Source of the DNA: an uncultured Spartobacteria bacterium
GTDB lineage: Bacteria > Verrucomicrobiota > Verrucomicrobiia > Chthoniobacterales > Chthoniobacteraceae
Assembly (NCBI GenBank): GCA_903882875.1
Contig: CAIRYQ010000018.1
Span: 1 to 64,000 of the forward strand
Direction of reading: 5' to 3'
Length of the DNA stretch: 64,000 nt
Below the pieces are notes generated by a model that made no database searches, was not told the DNA's origin, and saw only the letters and a program-made list of their open reading frames with translations. The stretch's first letter is position 1, and every line of letters starts with the position of its first letter. Below, one piece after another: positions 1,356 through 60,800 of this stretch. Both the position numbers and the translations under genes were made by a program.

Positions 1356-1436
1356 TGCAGTTTAGCTTCCGGGTGAAAAAGGGCTGTTTTTGCAGGAAAA
1401 TACCGACTTTCCGCTGAAGCCGCCGTTTTCCACGCG

Positions 1437-1793
1437 GCATTCCTTATTGGAGCCGTCGCATTTCTTATTGGGAATGCGGCATTCCTTACTGACGGCGTGA
1501 CGTTCCTCATTGGAACCGTGGCATTCCTTACTGACGACGTGACGTTCCTTATCAGGGATGCCGCATTCCTTATTGACGATGCCACGTTCCTTACTGACGA
1601 CGCGACGTTCCTAATTGGGGGCGTCGCATTCCTAATTGGGGATGCCGCATCGTCAATGAGGTCCGCGACGGAGTTGATTGACGACGCGACGGAATCAATC
1701 CGGTCCGTCGCATCTTCCATTGGATCCGTGGCATCCCCAATGAAGTCCGTCGCGGAACCGGTGCATCCCGCGACAGAACCCGTGAAGGCCGGA
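1437..1793. repeat. Tandem array of seventeen degenerate 21-bp repeats
   Basis: Seventeen head-to-tail 21-bp units without spacers, for example GCATTCCTTATTGACGATGCC followed by ACGTTCCTTACTGACGACGCG. Units start with GCATTCC or ACGTTCC on the left and change to GCATC or ACGGA forms on the right. The period equals seven codons and contains no stops in one frame of each strand. The + strand reads heptapeptides like DATFLIG and SVASSIG (open from 1377 to 2156, first ATG at 1497). The - strand reads (A/V)(A/T)xx(I/V)RN heptapeptides inside an open frame 1169-2035. Both readings place hydrophobic residues 3 and 4 apart, as in a coiled coil. I cannot tell which strand, if either, is translated. 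Confidence 0.9.
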
Positions 1794-2759: not shown

Positions 2760-4760
2760 ATGCACCTCATCGCATCCACAAGGCCAAGCACCCGAGTTCG
2801 GGCATTCACATGCCGGATTTTTGCATCACTGATTCTGGCCGCGTTCTCACTCACCGACTGCGCGGCGGAGGGTGAGACGATTCTGGAACCGAAGCGGCTC
2901 CACCTTGGCAAACCGGGACAATGGGAGTGGGATTCGTTCAAGGATCGCGCAGTGGATGCCGAGAAGTTCGAGCGGAAATTTCCGGCAAAGGCGAATGCCT
3001 CGGAACACACGCTGCGAATCTGGCAGAGCGATGTGAAACTCACCTGGCCGGTGACGCTGAACGGCCGCAAGCTCGGCATCCTGACCACGGCGGAAACACC
3101 GATGGAGAGCGTTTTCGTGATCCCTGCGGGCGCCCTGAAGGATGGCGAAAACACGCTCGTGATCGCAGCGCCCGAGGCATTGGATGACATTGAGATCGGG
3201 CCGGTCATCATCACGCCGCAGCCGGTGCAGGCGTACCTCAGCGGCGCAAAGCTGGAGGTGAGCGTGACCGATGTTTCCAACGGCAAGCCGATGCCGTGCC
3301 GGCTGACTTTGACCCGACCGGACGGCACATTGCAGCCGCTTCGCGCCGAACCGGCGGCGGATGTGGCCGTGCGTGTGGGGGTGGTGTACACGCGGAACGG
3401 CAGGGCCACGCTGTCCGTGCCGGCCGGCGACTACATTCTCCACGCGGGCCGTGGCTTTGAATGGAGCGTGGGACGTGCGGCTGTCGCATTGGGCGCATCG
3501 GGAACGAAAGAAGTGGCGCTCACGCTACGCCGCGAAGTGCCCACGGAAGGCTGGATCGCCGCGGACAGCCACATTCACACACTCACTCACAGCGGACATG
3601 GGGACGCGACGATCGAGGAGCGCATGCTGACCATCGCGGGCGAAGGCATCGAACTGGCCATCGCCACGGATCACAATCACCACACGGATTACGCTCCCAT
3701 CACCGCGAGTCAGGGCGTTGCCGGGCATTTCACGCCAATCATCGGCAATGAAGTGACGACCAAGCGCGGGCACTTCAACGCGTTCCCGATCCTGCCCGGA
3801 GCGAGGCTCGTGAACTCCAAGGAGGAGGACTGGTCGAAGCTGTTGCCGGAGATCCGCGCGACACCGGGCGTGAAGGTCATCACACTGAATCATCCGCGCG
3901 ATCTCCACAGCGGCTTCATTCCGTTTGGTGAGATGCAGTTCAATCCCAAGACCGGAAAGCACGCCGACGCCGACGCCCTGAGAGGCGTGGATGCGGTGGA
4001 AGTCGTCACGTCCGCTGCAATGCAGTCCGACATTCACCTTCTCTATCGCGATTGGTTCGCATTGTTGAACCGCGGCCACCGCATTTCCGCGATTGCATCC
4101 AGCGACAGCCACGACGTGAACCGCTTCATCGTGGGCCAGGGACGCACCTATGTGGCGGCCAAAGACAGCGACCCGGCGAATCTCGATCTCGATGAAGTGT
4201 GGCGCAGCTATCAGGAGGGCCGACTGCTCGTCAGCCTCGGCCTGCTCACACAACTGCGGGTCAACGACCGTTTCACCGTCGGGGATCTGGCAACGGGACT
4301 CGGCGAGAGCATCAAGGTCGAGGCCACGGTGCTCGGCCCGTCGTGGGTGAAGGCGGACGGCATCGAGCTGTTTGCAAATGGCCGCGTGATTCGCGAGCAG
4401 CAGATTCAGGACGATCATCGCGCCGGGGAAAAGGCCCGCATCGTCTGGCAGATTCCGAAGCCGGCGCACGATGTGCATCTCGTCGCCATTGCGACCGGGC
4501 CCGGCGTCACCGAGCCGTTCTGGGAAATCCCACGCCCCTACCAGCCCACCAGCAAGACGTTTGTTCCCCGCGTCATCGGCTCCACGAATCCCATCTGGCT
4601 CGACGCGGATGGAGACGGCCAGTTTCAGTCCGCCTTTGCCTACGCGCAAAAATTGATCACACAGCACGGCGGTGATCGCGGGAAACTGCGTGCGGCTTTG
4701 CGCGGATACGATGAGGCCGTCGCCACTCAGGTGGAATCGCTGCTGGGCTCGCAGCCGTAG
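2760..4760 (+). CDS. Secreted CehA/McbA-type metallohydrolase (PHP fold)
   Basis: About 666 residues. The start at 2760 gives a signal peptide (hydrophobic FASLILAAFSL, likely cut after DCAA); an in-frame ATG at 2679 would add 27 unrelated residues. After a beta-rich N-terminal region, a PHP-type phosphoesterase domain begins with the metal ligands DSHIHTLTHSGHG, followed by ATDHNHHTDY, NEVTT, LNHPRD and SSDSHDVNRF. This is the usual order for the CehA/McbA family, which includes carbamate and other ester hydrolases. The true substrate cannot be read from sequence. It should act in the periplasm or outside the cell. It appears monocistronic; the next gene converges on it. Confidence 0.8.
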   Translation: MHLIASTRPSTRVRAFTCRIFASLILAAFSLTDCAAEGETILEPKRLHLGKPGQWEWDSFKDRAVDAEKFERKFPAKANASEHTLRIWQSDVKLTWPVTLNGRKLGILTTAETPMESVFVIPAGALKDGENTLVIAAPEALDDIEIGPVIITPQPVQAYLSGAKLEVSVTDVSNGKPMPCRLTLTRPDGTLQPLRAEPAADVAVRVGVVYTRNGRATLSVPAGDYILHAGRGFEWSVGRAAVALGASGTKEVALTLRREVPTEGWIAADSHIHTLTHSGHGDATIEERMLTIAGEGIELAIATDHNHHTDYAPITASQGVAGHFTPIIGNEVTTKRGHFNAFPILPGARLVNSKEEDWSKLLPEIRATPGVKVITLNHPRDLHSGFIPFGEMQFNPKTGKHADADALRGVDAVEVVTSAAMQSDIHLLYRDWFALLNRGHRISAIASSDSHDVNRFIVGQGRTYVAAKDSDPANLDLDEVWRSYQEGRLLVSLGLLTQLRVNDRFTVGDLATGLGESIKVEATVLGPSWVKADGIELFANGRVIREQQIQDDHRAGEKARIVWQIPKPAHDVHLVAIATGPGVTEPFWEIPRPYQPTSKTFVPRVIGSTNPIWLDADGDGQFQSAFAYAQKLITQHGGDRGKLRAALRGYDEAVATQVESLLGSQP

Positions 4761-58439: not shown

Positions 58440-60800
58440 TCACCGTGAGCGCGGCTCGACTCCGAGCAGGTGCCGCACGAGGAAATCCGCGCGGCGCCTG
58501 CTGCCGTATGCGCTCTCCGCCGCGCCGTGGTCGCTGCCGGTGATGATGCACAGGTCAAAGTCCTTGTTCGCCTTTTCGAGCGCGTTCACGACCTGCATCG
58601 TGCTCGCGGGATCCACATTCGTGTCCATCTCGCCGACGATGAGCAACAGCTTGCCGTTGAGTTTCGCGGCGTGTGTGACGTTGGAATTCTCCGCATACCA
58701 CGGGCCGACTTCGCCGAGCCATGCCTCGTTCCACCAGATCTTGTCCATGCGGTTGTCGTGACAGCCGCAGTCGGCGACGCCGACTTCGTAGAAGTCGCCG
58801 TGGTGCAGCAGGCCCGCGAGCGCGTTCTGCCCGCCCGCGCTGCCGCCGTAGATGCCGACGCGCGTGAGGTCCATCCACGGGCGCGTCGCGACGGCCGCGC
58901 GCATCCACGCGATGCGGTCGGGGAAGCCGGCGTCCTTGAGGTTGCGCCACGCGACGTCGTGGAATGCGCGCGAGCGCCAGTTCGTGCCCATGCCGTCAAT
59001 CTGCACGACGATGAAGCCCAGCTCCGCGATCGCGTGCTGGCGCTGCTGGCGTCCCCATTCCTTCGGGACGAAGTAGCCGTGCGGCCCGGCGTAGATTTCC
59101 TCGACGACGGGATATTTCTTCGCCGGATCAAAATCGGACGGCTTGATGATGACGCCGAAGATGTCCGTCTTCCCGTCGCGCCCCTTCGCGGTAAAACGCT
59201 CGGGCGTCGTCCAGCCGCTCGCGGTGAGCGCGGACGCGTCCGCCTTTTCCAAAGTGCAGACAAGCTTGCCAGTCTCCGCGTTGCGCAGCTCGGTGACGGG
59301 CGGCAAATCCACGCGCGAATACGTGTCCACGATCCAGCGGCCATTCGGCGAGAGCACGGGGTCGCTGCTGCCGCTCTTGCCAATTTTTGAGGCGTGCGTG
59401 CCGTCGCCGTCGGTGAGCAGCGTGAAGCCGCTGCCGTCGAAATTCACGCGCGCGAAGTGGACGAAATACGGATCCTGATCCGGCTTGATGCCGGCGACGC
59501 GCAGCCAGAGCTGGCGCTTCTCCTCGTCCACGCGCACGACGCCGCGCACGACCCACTCGCCACGCGTGATTTGGTTTTTCAATGCGCCGGTTTTCGCATC
59601 GAAAAGGTAGAGGTGATTCCAGCCATCGCGCTCGCTCGCCCACAATAGTTCGCTGGTCGCGTCGAGCCAGCGGAGCCACGTCTTCTGCGAGTAGTCCACA
59701 AAGGTCGCCGATTTTTCCTCGACGAGGGTGCGCGACTTGCCCTCGCGATCCACCGCGACGATGCGCAGGATCTGGTGGCCGCGTTCATTGTAGAGGAATG
59801 TGAGCTGCGACGAATCCGCCTGCCAGCGCAGGTCCGTGATGCTCCACGGCTTCGCGAATAGCGCGTCGTCCACGGCGACGGGCGCGCGCTTTTCCAGGTC
59901 GAACAACACGGGCCGCTCATGGCGGATGCGGTCGCCGGGCTTGAGATACTGGTGCGCGTGGAGCTTTGGCTGCACCTGATCCTTCGGCGACGACTCGATG
60001 AAATGCACGAGGTGCTCCTGCTCAGGCCGCACTTGAAGGCAGACTGCGCGCTTGCCGTCCGGCGAGACGAGCACGGGCTCGCGATACGCGTCGTCCTTCG
60101 TGCCGTCGCGCGTGAGCTGCGTCTCCTCGCCGGAGTCGCGGTGCTTGAGCCACACGTTGAAGTCGCGCACGAATGCGCGCAGCGGAGATTGCGGATGGCG
60201 GATTGCGGATTGCGGATCTTTTGATCCGGCGCGTTTCTCTTCACTTCGCGCCTTTGCGTCTTTGCGCGAGCCATCAATCAACGCCTCTCCCCCGCCCTCG
60301 CGCGCCTCGATGACATCGAGCCGCTCGTGCGCCTCGTTCTCCACTACCCACACATGCCCGGCGAATGTGTGCTGCCGGAATTGATCCCCCGGCTTGATGG
60401 TCGCGTACTTTTTCCGCCCGCCCGATGTGGTCATCCACCAGCACACCGCGTTGCTGTCGGTCTTGTTGATAAATGTGATGGACGTCTCCACGTCACTCGG
60501 CCCGCTCGCGTGCGGCTCGGCGAGTTGCTCGGGCTTCGTCGCGTCCGCCGGCGGCTCGTAGCCGGCGCGGCGCTCGCCCTTCACGCAGTCCACGAATACG
60601 TTCTCAAATCTCCCCGGCGCGATCTCGACGCGGTACCAGAACGAATCTCCGCCCTGCAGCCAGTGCGGCTCGACGCGCGCCCGGAAAACTTTGCCCTCCG
60701 TCCGCTTTCCAAGCGATGCGGCGCGTTCATAGTCCGCCTTCGTGCCTTGTGCAAATGCGGCGGAAGTGGCGACGAATGCGAGTGCGAGACGGAGGAACAT
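58440..60800 (-). CDS. Secreted S9-family prolyl oligopeptidase-like peptidase (DPP4 type)
   Basis: About 786 residues from ATG 60800, with a signal peptide (FLRLALAFVATSAAFAQ). N-terminal DPP4-like propeller, then the alpha/beta hydrolase domain: nucleophile in GIYGGSAGGQNAL, Asp in VGEMDTNVDP and His in GSDHGAAES. Cuts dipeptides or oligopeptides, often after proline, outside the cytoplasm. About 30 residues in the N-terminal region (GSRKDAKARSEEKR through AIRHPQSPL) are encoded by repeat-type DNA, an apparent in-frame insertion. Confidence 0.9.
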   Translation of the reverse strand: MFLRLALAFVATSAAFAQGTKADYERAASLGKRTEGKVFRARVEPHWLQGGDSFWYRVEIAPGRFENVFVDCVKGERRAGYEPPADATKPEQLAEPHASGPSDVETSITFINKTDSNAVCWWMTTSGGRKKYATIKPGDQFRQHTFAGHVWVVENEAHERLDVIEAREGGGEALIDGSRKDAKARSEEKRAGSKDPQSAIRHPQSPLRAFVRDFNVWLKHRDSGEETQLTRDGTKDDAYREPVLVSPDGKRAVCLQVRPEQEHLVHFIESSPKDQVQPKLHAHQYLKPGDRIRHERPVLFDLEKRAPVAVDDALFAKPWSITDLRWQADSSQLTFLYNERGHQILRIVAVDREGKSRTLVEEKSATFVDYSQKTWLRWLDATSELLWASERDGWNHLYLFDAKTGALKNQITRGEWVVRGVVRVDEEKRQLWLRVAGIKPDQDPYFVHFARVNFDGSGFTLLTDGDGTHASKIGKSGSSDPVLSPNGRWIVDTYSRVDLPPVTELRNAETGKLVCTLEKADASALTASGWTTPERFTAKGRDGKTDIFGVIIKPSDFDPAKKYPVVEEIYAGPHGYFVPKEWGRQQRQHAIAELGFIVVQIDGMGTNWRSRAFHDVAWRNLKDAGFPDRIAWMRAAVATRPWMDLTRVGIYGGSAGGQNALAGLLHHGDFYEVGVADCGCHDNRMDKIWWNEAWLGEVGPWYAENSNVTHAAKLNGKLLLIVGEMDTNVDPASTMQVVNALEKANKDFDLCIITGSDHGAAESAYGSRRRADFLVRHLLGVEPRSR
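60184..60280. repeat. Extragenic-type repeat inserted in frame in the peptidase gene
   Basis: Contains four heptamers (ATTGCGG, ATGGCGG, ATTGCGG, ATTGCGG at 60188-60215) and CTTCGCGCCTTTGCGT (60244-60259), which also occurs at 43478-43493 outside any gene. The first part matches the array at 1251-1278. Confidence 0.75.

Follow-up and report, generated by a model that had tools for sequence, protein, structure and literature searches.

The iterons of plasmid replication origins are tandem units of about 20–22 bp that lie on one face of the DNA helix and are present in several to many copies. The REP/BIME palindromes are dyad repeats linked to RAYT transposases, and some copies stand without a gene. 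Promoter minisatellites, or VNTRs, are tandem units located upstream of a gene that gain and lose whole units. The STRR sequences of cyanobacteria are heptanucleotide repeats. Here we describe an array of 21-bp units from an uncultured Spartobacteria bacterium and its relatives. The array lies in a stretch of 64,000 nucleotides, hereafter the window, at the start of contig C18 of assembly G000 (5.78 Mb in 129 contigs).

Arrays of the window type resemble iteron arrays in unit length, predicted one-face phasing and copy number. However, they are found in chromosomal-type contigs, many per genome and usually with their own unit at each locus, and they precede a gene for a fibronectin III-like (Fn3-like) protein instead of a replication initiator; no Rep match was found among 17 proteins and open frames scanned with Pfam. 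With the REP/BIME-RAYT system they share dyad-leaning repeats tied to a gene family and the existence of gene-free copies (in genomes G023 and G028), whereas the arrays studied here are long, head-to-tail and of near-constant period. Like promoter VNTRs they are upstream tandem units with gain and loss of whole units, but here a single, nearly constant unit length persists from locus to locus, in two gene families and several genera, under a changing sequence. Heptanucleotide repeats such as GATTGCG and STRR are likewise dispersed short tandem repeats, and 21 is three times seven, but the window units are not built of 7-mers and the arrays are tied to genes. The likeness to a helically phased operator array would be limited to the period of about 21 bp and the dyad tendency of the units.

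The Window Array and Its Leader

A reading made from the letters of the window alone (the sequence-only reading) had reported seventeen 21-bp repeats at 1437–1793. We found 17 contiguous, in-phase units of 21 bp, with true bounds 3 bp further to the left, at 1434–1790. Across 1437–1793 self-identity peaked at lag 84 (0.63), followed by lags 21 and 42 (0.60 each) and lags 63 and 105 (0.57 each), and did not exceed 0.34 at any lag between 1 and 149 that is not a multiple of 21. Tandem Repeats Finder called arrays of 21, 42 and 63 bp. With a looser threshold the periodic region covered 1390–1853, and a stricter scan stopped at 1781; the stretch 1791–1853, periodic at the looser threshold only, may be a degenerate margin of the array on its outer side. 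The units fall into two sub-consensus forms, one in the left ten (TTCCTTATTG-like) and the other in the right seven, and each strand contains a single stop-free frame, whose translation gives DATFLIG-like heptads on the plus strand and RNVASSI-like heptads on the minus strand; on all these points the sequence-only reading was correct. A DNA search of the own genome with the window array found no second copy.

A gene on the minus strand (495–1244) has its start codon 189 bp downstream of the array, and the leader, from array to start codon, occupies 1245–1433 on the same strand. At 1375–1391 (minus strand) the leader holds AAAAACAGCCCTTTTTC, a motif that recurs in the leaders of some cassettes. 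The loose AAAAACAGCCCTTTTTC-type pattern was found in 11 of 50 post-array stretches compared to 0.5 expected from shuffles, an excess that is partly circular since the pattern was made by eye and partly from sequences later tested.

Other short repeats are present in the window. A GATTGCG heptanucleotide repeat lies within the leader at 1250–1279, with no strand assigned, and again at 60187–60217; matches to the GATTGCG stretch are scattered over genomes of the genus, the family and the order, and the copy in the leader is probably unrelated to the array. A GGAACGC heptanucleotide repeat is located at 1942–1976, and a GC-rich element (…CGCGCGCGGAGCG…) at 1328–1356 and 2557–2586 recurs elsewhere in the genome and in relatives.

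The Protein Encoded Behind the Array

The gene at 495–1244 encodes a protein of 249 aa that, from Pfam, AlphaFold2 and fold search, is predicted to consist of a disordered leader with WD-type motifs, a helical domain and a C-terminal Fn3-like domain. The AlphaFold2 model (pLDDT 75.3, pTM 0.44) has a disordered N-terminus, helices at 55–68, 82–101, 104–131 and 136–140, and a beta-rich C-terminus. The top PDB fold matches found by Foldseek were Fn3 domains (best E 7.6e-6), and the viral fold matches were mostly phage tail and Fn3 proteins. The modeled C-terminus thus fits an Fn3 beta-sandwich by fold search, with a sequence match to Pfam fn3 (E=4.8e-4, 20.7 bits) that is below the cut-off of 25.

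For the ten members from which the family-1 profile, A1, was built, fn3 was the sole Pfam match at E ≤ 0.01 (with sub-threshold fn3 matches in four) and NCBIfam gave no match; no Y1-type transposase of the kind expected for a REP/RAYT system was found among these ten. Neither Pfam nor NCBIfam matched a linked protein to a nuclease or transposase. Weak phage-tail matches to PHROG were obtained for a few of the ten. A link of the family to defence was rejected, PADLOC giving a single marginal match (Csm6, E 0.0057) in one of the ten members.

An N-terminal leader peptide with [WFY]D repeats was found in 17 of 67 family-1 rows and 4 of 26 family-2 rows (family 2 is described below), counts obtained with a strict pattern that misses some true cases. 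Related aromatic leaders are present in further array-preceded genes.

Association of Arrays With Two Gene Families

The window protein has 11 matches in G000. Nine are preceded at short distance by a 21-bp array; of the other two, one is a gene cut off upstream by a contig end and one is a weak C-terminal match. Profile A1 matched 66 places in 14 of 40 genomes of the taxonomic family, and at least five of 387 genomes in a phylum sample that includes the own genome and in which at most seven candidates were scored per genome. As named relatives we found seven or eight assemblies of Verrucomicrobia, Spartobacteria or Chthoniobacteraceae, plus an Acidobacteria fragment that has no array. Pooling of all family-1 rows, fragments included, gave 77 distinct ones, of which 56 had an upstream array (score ≥ 0.62), 19 had none and two had too little upstream sequence.

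When family 1 was limited to genes with a profile span of at least 150 and at least 400 nt upstream, an array scoring ≥ 0.62 was found within 700 nt upstream in 50 of 60 genes. None was found within 700 nt downstream in the 59 testable genes (55 with at least 400 nt downstream). As background, 449 kb of G000 were scanned for open reading frames of 150 aa or more; an array was located near 10 of the 261, several of which adjoin the same arrays. The ten genes with no array within 700 nt are L084, L092, L097, L105, L106, L131, L137, L140, L142, and L143; L105 and L131 have arrays at greater distance, and L084 and L092 have weak lag-21 signals (0.56 and 0.52). Short partial matches in G000 (C35, C53), G023 (C22), G028 (C200), and G032 (C16, C79) had been left out before this count. 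In a genome-contig collection eight of nine loci carried an array, with L124, L125, and L127 being duplicates of places already counted. Outside the taxonomic family, an array precedes members in G046, of the same order, and in G284 and G293, of the same class. No array was found at three G284 members (L140, L142, and L143) or at either match in G169, which belongs to another class.

A second family, defined from locus L146 (1217–1912), was matched at 53 places in 13 of the 40 genomes. Its profile aligns with that of family 1 over 41 C-terminal columns only (E 0.056). Thirty of the 53 places, all within the taxonomic family, were examined, and 23 of them had at least 400 nt upstream. Within 700 nt upstream 21 of these 23 had an array at ≥ 0.62 and 22 at ≥ 0.60; the 23rd, L170, is a fragment. 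No array was found within 700 nt downstream of family-2 genes.

The arrangement of array, leader and helical/Fn3-like gene thus recurs before many related Verrucomicrobia genes, usually with different unit letters. The presence of a family gene predicts an array strongly; an array predicts a family gene less well.

Arrays Without a Gene of Either Family

Among genomes with no gene of family 1 or 2, G034 had one weak array in 349 kb sampled and G017 had none in 247 kb, compared to five arrays in 343 kb of G039, which has both families. Sixteen arrays were found in 385 kb of G000, from contigs selected for holding hits, and three of them (two in L053, one in L056) resemble another repeat kind. 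G004, with no hit of either family, carries a strong array of about 570 bp (L002) located 67 bp before an unrelated open frame of 146 aa, and G016, also with no hit, has a short array (L006). Orphan arrays with no family member alongside are present in G000 itself, for instance near 24.5 kb of C9 and in C50. Gene-free array copies were also found in G023 (408 alignment columns, 86% identical) and in G028 (281 columns, 88% identical).

The Pfam matches among the neighbors of G000 orphan arrays included an IS1595 transposase (C50), DUF3500 and Peptidase_Mx proteins; over the ten neighbor proteins of orphan arrays and the window that were scanned, that transposase was the only one, and no recombinase was found. 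A pattern scan of viral contigs and a tblastn search of plasmids with the window protein, both reaching mainly close relatives, found no relative, and a viral or plasmid origin was rejected on this basis.

Three further observations were made at individual loci. At L042 (12181–13389) an array precedes an open frame of 403 aa in which extra residues stand before an apparent signal peptide; this may be the start of a cassette gene fused to the next gene. At L010 in G023, a 21-bp array lies about 1.2 kb from the stretch 2890–3216, which we take to be the start of a putative Cas9-like open frame. Five contigs of G028 (C268, C146, C91, C173, and C142) start with C-terminal fragments of family-2 genes, which may be near-identical copies breaking the assembly.

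Unit Turnover Between Loci

Closely related arrays differ by whole units. The arrays of L161 and L162 show a difference of exactly 84 bp, or four units, and those of L176 and L177 one of exactly 21 bp, or one unit. The arrays of L094 and L095 are otherwise 95–100% identical and differ by a replaced block of about 40 bp. These differences in relatives lend support to the stepwise amplification that had been suggested for the window array from its two halves.

Over longer distances the units are mostly unrelated. In six pairs of proteins that are 70–79% identical, five of them within one genome, unit similarity was 0.48–0.67, where the null distribution has its mean at 0.46 and its 99th percentile at 0.57; one pair (L070/L067) lies above that percentile. 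That a gene product recognizes its own array is not favored, since these homologues mostly have unrelated units. Across all pairs, unit similarity rose weakly with protein similarity (rho 0.13, p 6e-4), so the units are not wholly independent of kinship; one distant protein pair (L132/L126) has similar units (0.76). A search of relatives with the translated heptads of the window did give matches in six of the 40 family genomes (G000 and five others), but the units there differ in sequence.

In three homologues in G028 the gene start and leader are closely alike up to the array edge, from where the arrays diverge, and the outermost array units look related. The idea that an array is newly made at each gene copy was dropped in favor of rapid unit turnover, given these similar edge units.

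Period and Coding Potential

The best period was 21 or 42 in 48 of 56 arrays and 22 or 44 in five, and periods of 41, 43 and 16 were found once each; the 16-bp case (L123) also has a signal of 0.67–0.68 at 21/42. The number of open frames per array ranged from 0 to 6 among 50 rows, in which the window array is included and one array is entered twice. In five of 50 arrays, three with 21-bp and two with 22-bp units, all six frames are stopped. The unit need not keep a frame, since sister periods of 22, 41, 43, and 44 occur along with these fully stopped arrays. Open frames are ordinary in 21-bp tandem arrays.

A codon-position bias at p<0.05 was found in one of 37 arrays, the window's own (p=0.032), and in none of the other 36. 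A single value of this size among 37 tests is about the chance rate, yet it does not favor a non-coding reading. For the leader, 15 of 48 cases had the frame in phase with the gene open, where the other frames gave a fraction of 0.33; for the array the values were 22 of 48 and 0.52. In seven of 48 that frame was open through leader and array together. The periods, stops and frame counts led us to reject coding as a general reading, be it on one of the strands or in the form of extra N-terminal residues of the gene product. The sequence-only reading had offered a coiled-coil gene or a non-coding structural element, with conservation of one frame as the mark of coding. The non-coding half of that proposal holds up; the coiled-coil half does not, as sister arrays fail to conserve a frame.

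Symmetry, Folding and Composition

The consensus units of the arrays lean toward dyad symmetry. With arrays of unit identity under 0.5 excluded, family-1 units had 6.47 pairs compared to 5.42 expected from shuffles (43 arrays, Fisher p 1e-6), and family-2 units 6.60 compared to 5.53 (20 arrays, p 4e-5). Individually, 10 of the 43 family-1 units had a significant dyad (p<0.05). The similar heptads on the two strands of the window array fit the dyad tendency of units, though the window consensus itself has p=0.377.

No overall covariation between the arms was found within arrays (373 Watson-Crick pairs against 372.5 expected, z 0.05; z −0.19 with G-U pairs counted; 23 arrays), in a test of limited power since the arms are often near-invariant. 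L101 was the lone array with arm covariation (z 3.9). Fold energy was below that of unit-permuted controls on both strands, the mean z being −1.75 for the gene strand and −1.80 for its complement (63 arrays). None of 12 loci had an Rfam match at the gathering threshold. As the symmetry comes without general covariation or strand preference, these tests favor array units that would be DNA sites over units that would form RNA hairpins.

The purine/pyrimidine pattern is strongly periodic at 21 bp (z 6.9), and weak/strong (A/T versus G/C) composition has a 7-bp component within the 21-bp unit (z 4.7; 59 arrays in each case). There was no 10.5-bp signal in weak/strong composition in the same number of arrays, and intrinsic curvature by phased A-tracts was rejected on this ground. 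E. coli-type promoters scored no higher than background in the leader, the array or the sequence upstream of it, and an E. coli-type promoter position was dropped for lack of signal.

Discussion

The arrays stand 5' of their genes, recur before two weakly alike families, keep a period of about 20–22 bp per unit, turn over their units and have no overall coding signature. As a sequence class the window array is a gene-linked minisatellite, with head-to-tail units in the range of about 10–60 bp (17 × 21 bp) and whole-unit gain or loss in two pairs of related arrays. As a system it points to an undescribed DNA element, as far as can be judged from a partial search of the open-access literature that covered the beginnings of abstracts, where no account of the arrangement was found among the matches listed.

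We propose a cassette that consists of an array of about 21-bp units as its non-coding 5' module, a leader and a small protein with helical and fibronectin III-like parts; the window array would belong to the minus-strand gene 495–1244. That the window repeat is a non-coding 5' array we regard as highly probable. The array would act as DNA: since a unit spans about two turns of the helix, many dyad-leaning sites would come to lie on one face, a candidate dimeric or nucleoid-type protein could coat the array at regular intervals, and the coated array would set the expression, or the copying and rearrangement, of the gene behind it. For the non-coding array and this DNA-binding mechanism taken jointly we see a little less than an even chance, the role as DNA being inferred. 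A broader proposal, which we put forward tentatively and with clearly less assurance, is that the cis-element is defined by its period and not by its sequence: a two-turn array of about 21 bp per unit whose letters are rewritten while the spacing stays near-constant could serve as a common 5' platform for several helical/Fn3-like proteins, with homologues carrying different arrays.

The constant period may also be passive inheritance, because duplication of whole units preserves it. An ancestral 21-bp array would then travel with the genes as a functionless minisatellite, homogenized by unequal exchange and holding its unit length by inertia. The exact 21- and 84-bp indels and the block replacement between related arrays are what such a history would leave, as are the G028 homologues, alike in gene and leader up to the array edge with differing units and similar edge units, and the arrays that occur without the genes. 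We nevertheless consider it rather unlikely: family 1 has its upstream array beyond the taxonomic family as well, within the order (G046) and the class (G284 and G293, though not at L140, L142, and L143), family 2 does likewise within the taxonomic family, neither family has arrays within 700 nt downstream, and periods hold near 20–22 bp per unit despite one-base changes that do occur. A use of array and leader as a landing or exchange site, by which payload proteins are swapped or copied, would suit the [WFY]D- or WG-repeat leader peptide that heads different protein bodies, in the two families as in other genes with an array in front, the unrelated units in five of six pairs of 70–79% identical homologues, and the gene-free array copies. 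The IS1595 transposase at C50 is however the only such enzyme, with no recombinase, among the ten neighbor proteins scanned, and the leader peptide is optional by the strict pattern (17 of 67 and 4 of 26 rows), which leaves an exchange site improbable.

Two alternatives concern what the array is read as. Transcribed within the 5' UTR, it might form a series of short hairpins through which the gene is controlled; a stem can be drawn in many units (for example those of L160, L167, L186, and L187), array fold energy lies under that of the permuted controls on the gene strand and L101 does covary, but many units have no significant stem, the arms do not covary overall (a test of limited power), the fold energy has no strand preference and Rfam matched none of the 12 loci. 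We judge RNA control unlikely. Far less probable still is coding, whether of a variable-length heptad protein (by one strand or by both) or of extra N-terminal residues for the downstream gene. It could claim the single open frame on each window strand, the codon-position bias of the window array (p=0.032) and the seven of 48 arrays open in the gene frame through leader and array; against it stand periods that are not multiples of three, five arrays stopped in every frame, 36 of 37 arrays free of codon-position bias, and a gene frame no more open than the others.

With a non-coding 5' array as the preferred reading, an apparently orphan repeat becomes one case of a recurrent Verrucomicrobia architecture, present at dozens of sites in several genera, in which the spacing is kept and the sequence is not. 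The open frames of 21-bp arrays are a poor guide to coding. The arrays offer a handle on uncharacterized families of helical/Fn3-like proteins, and if the spacing is functional, they would represent a regulatory or recombination element that is read by its geometry.
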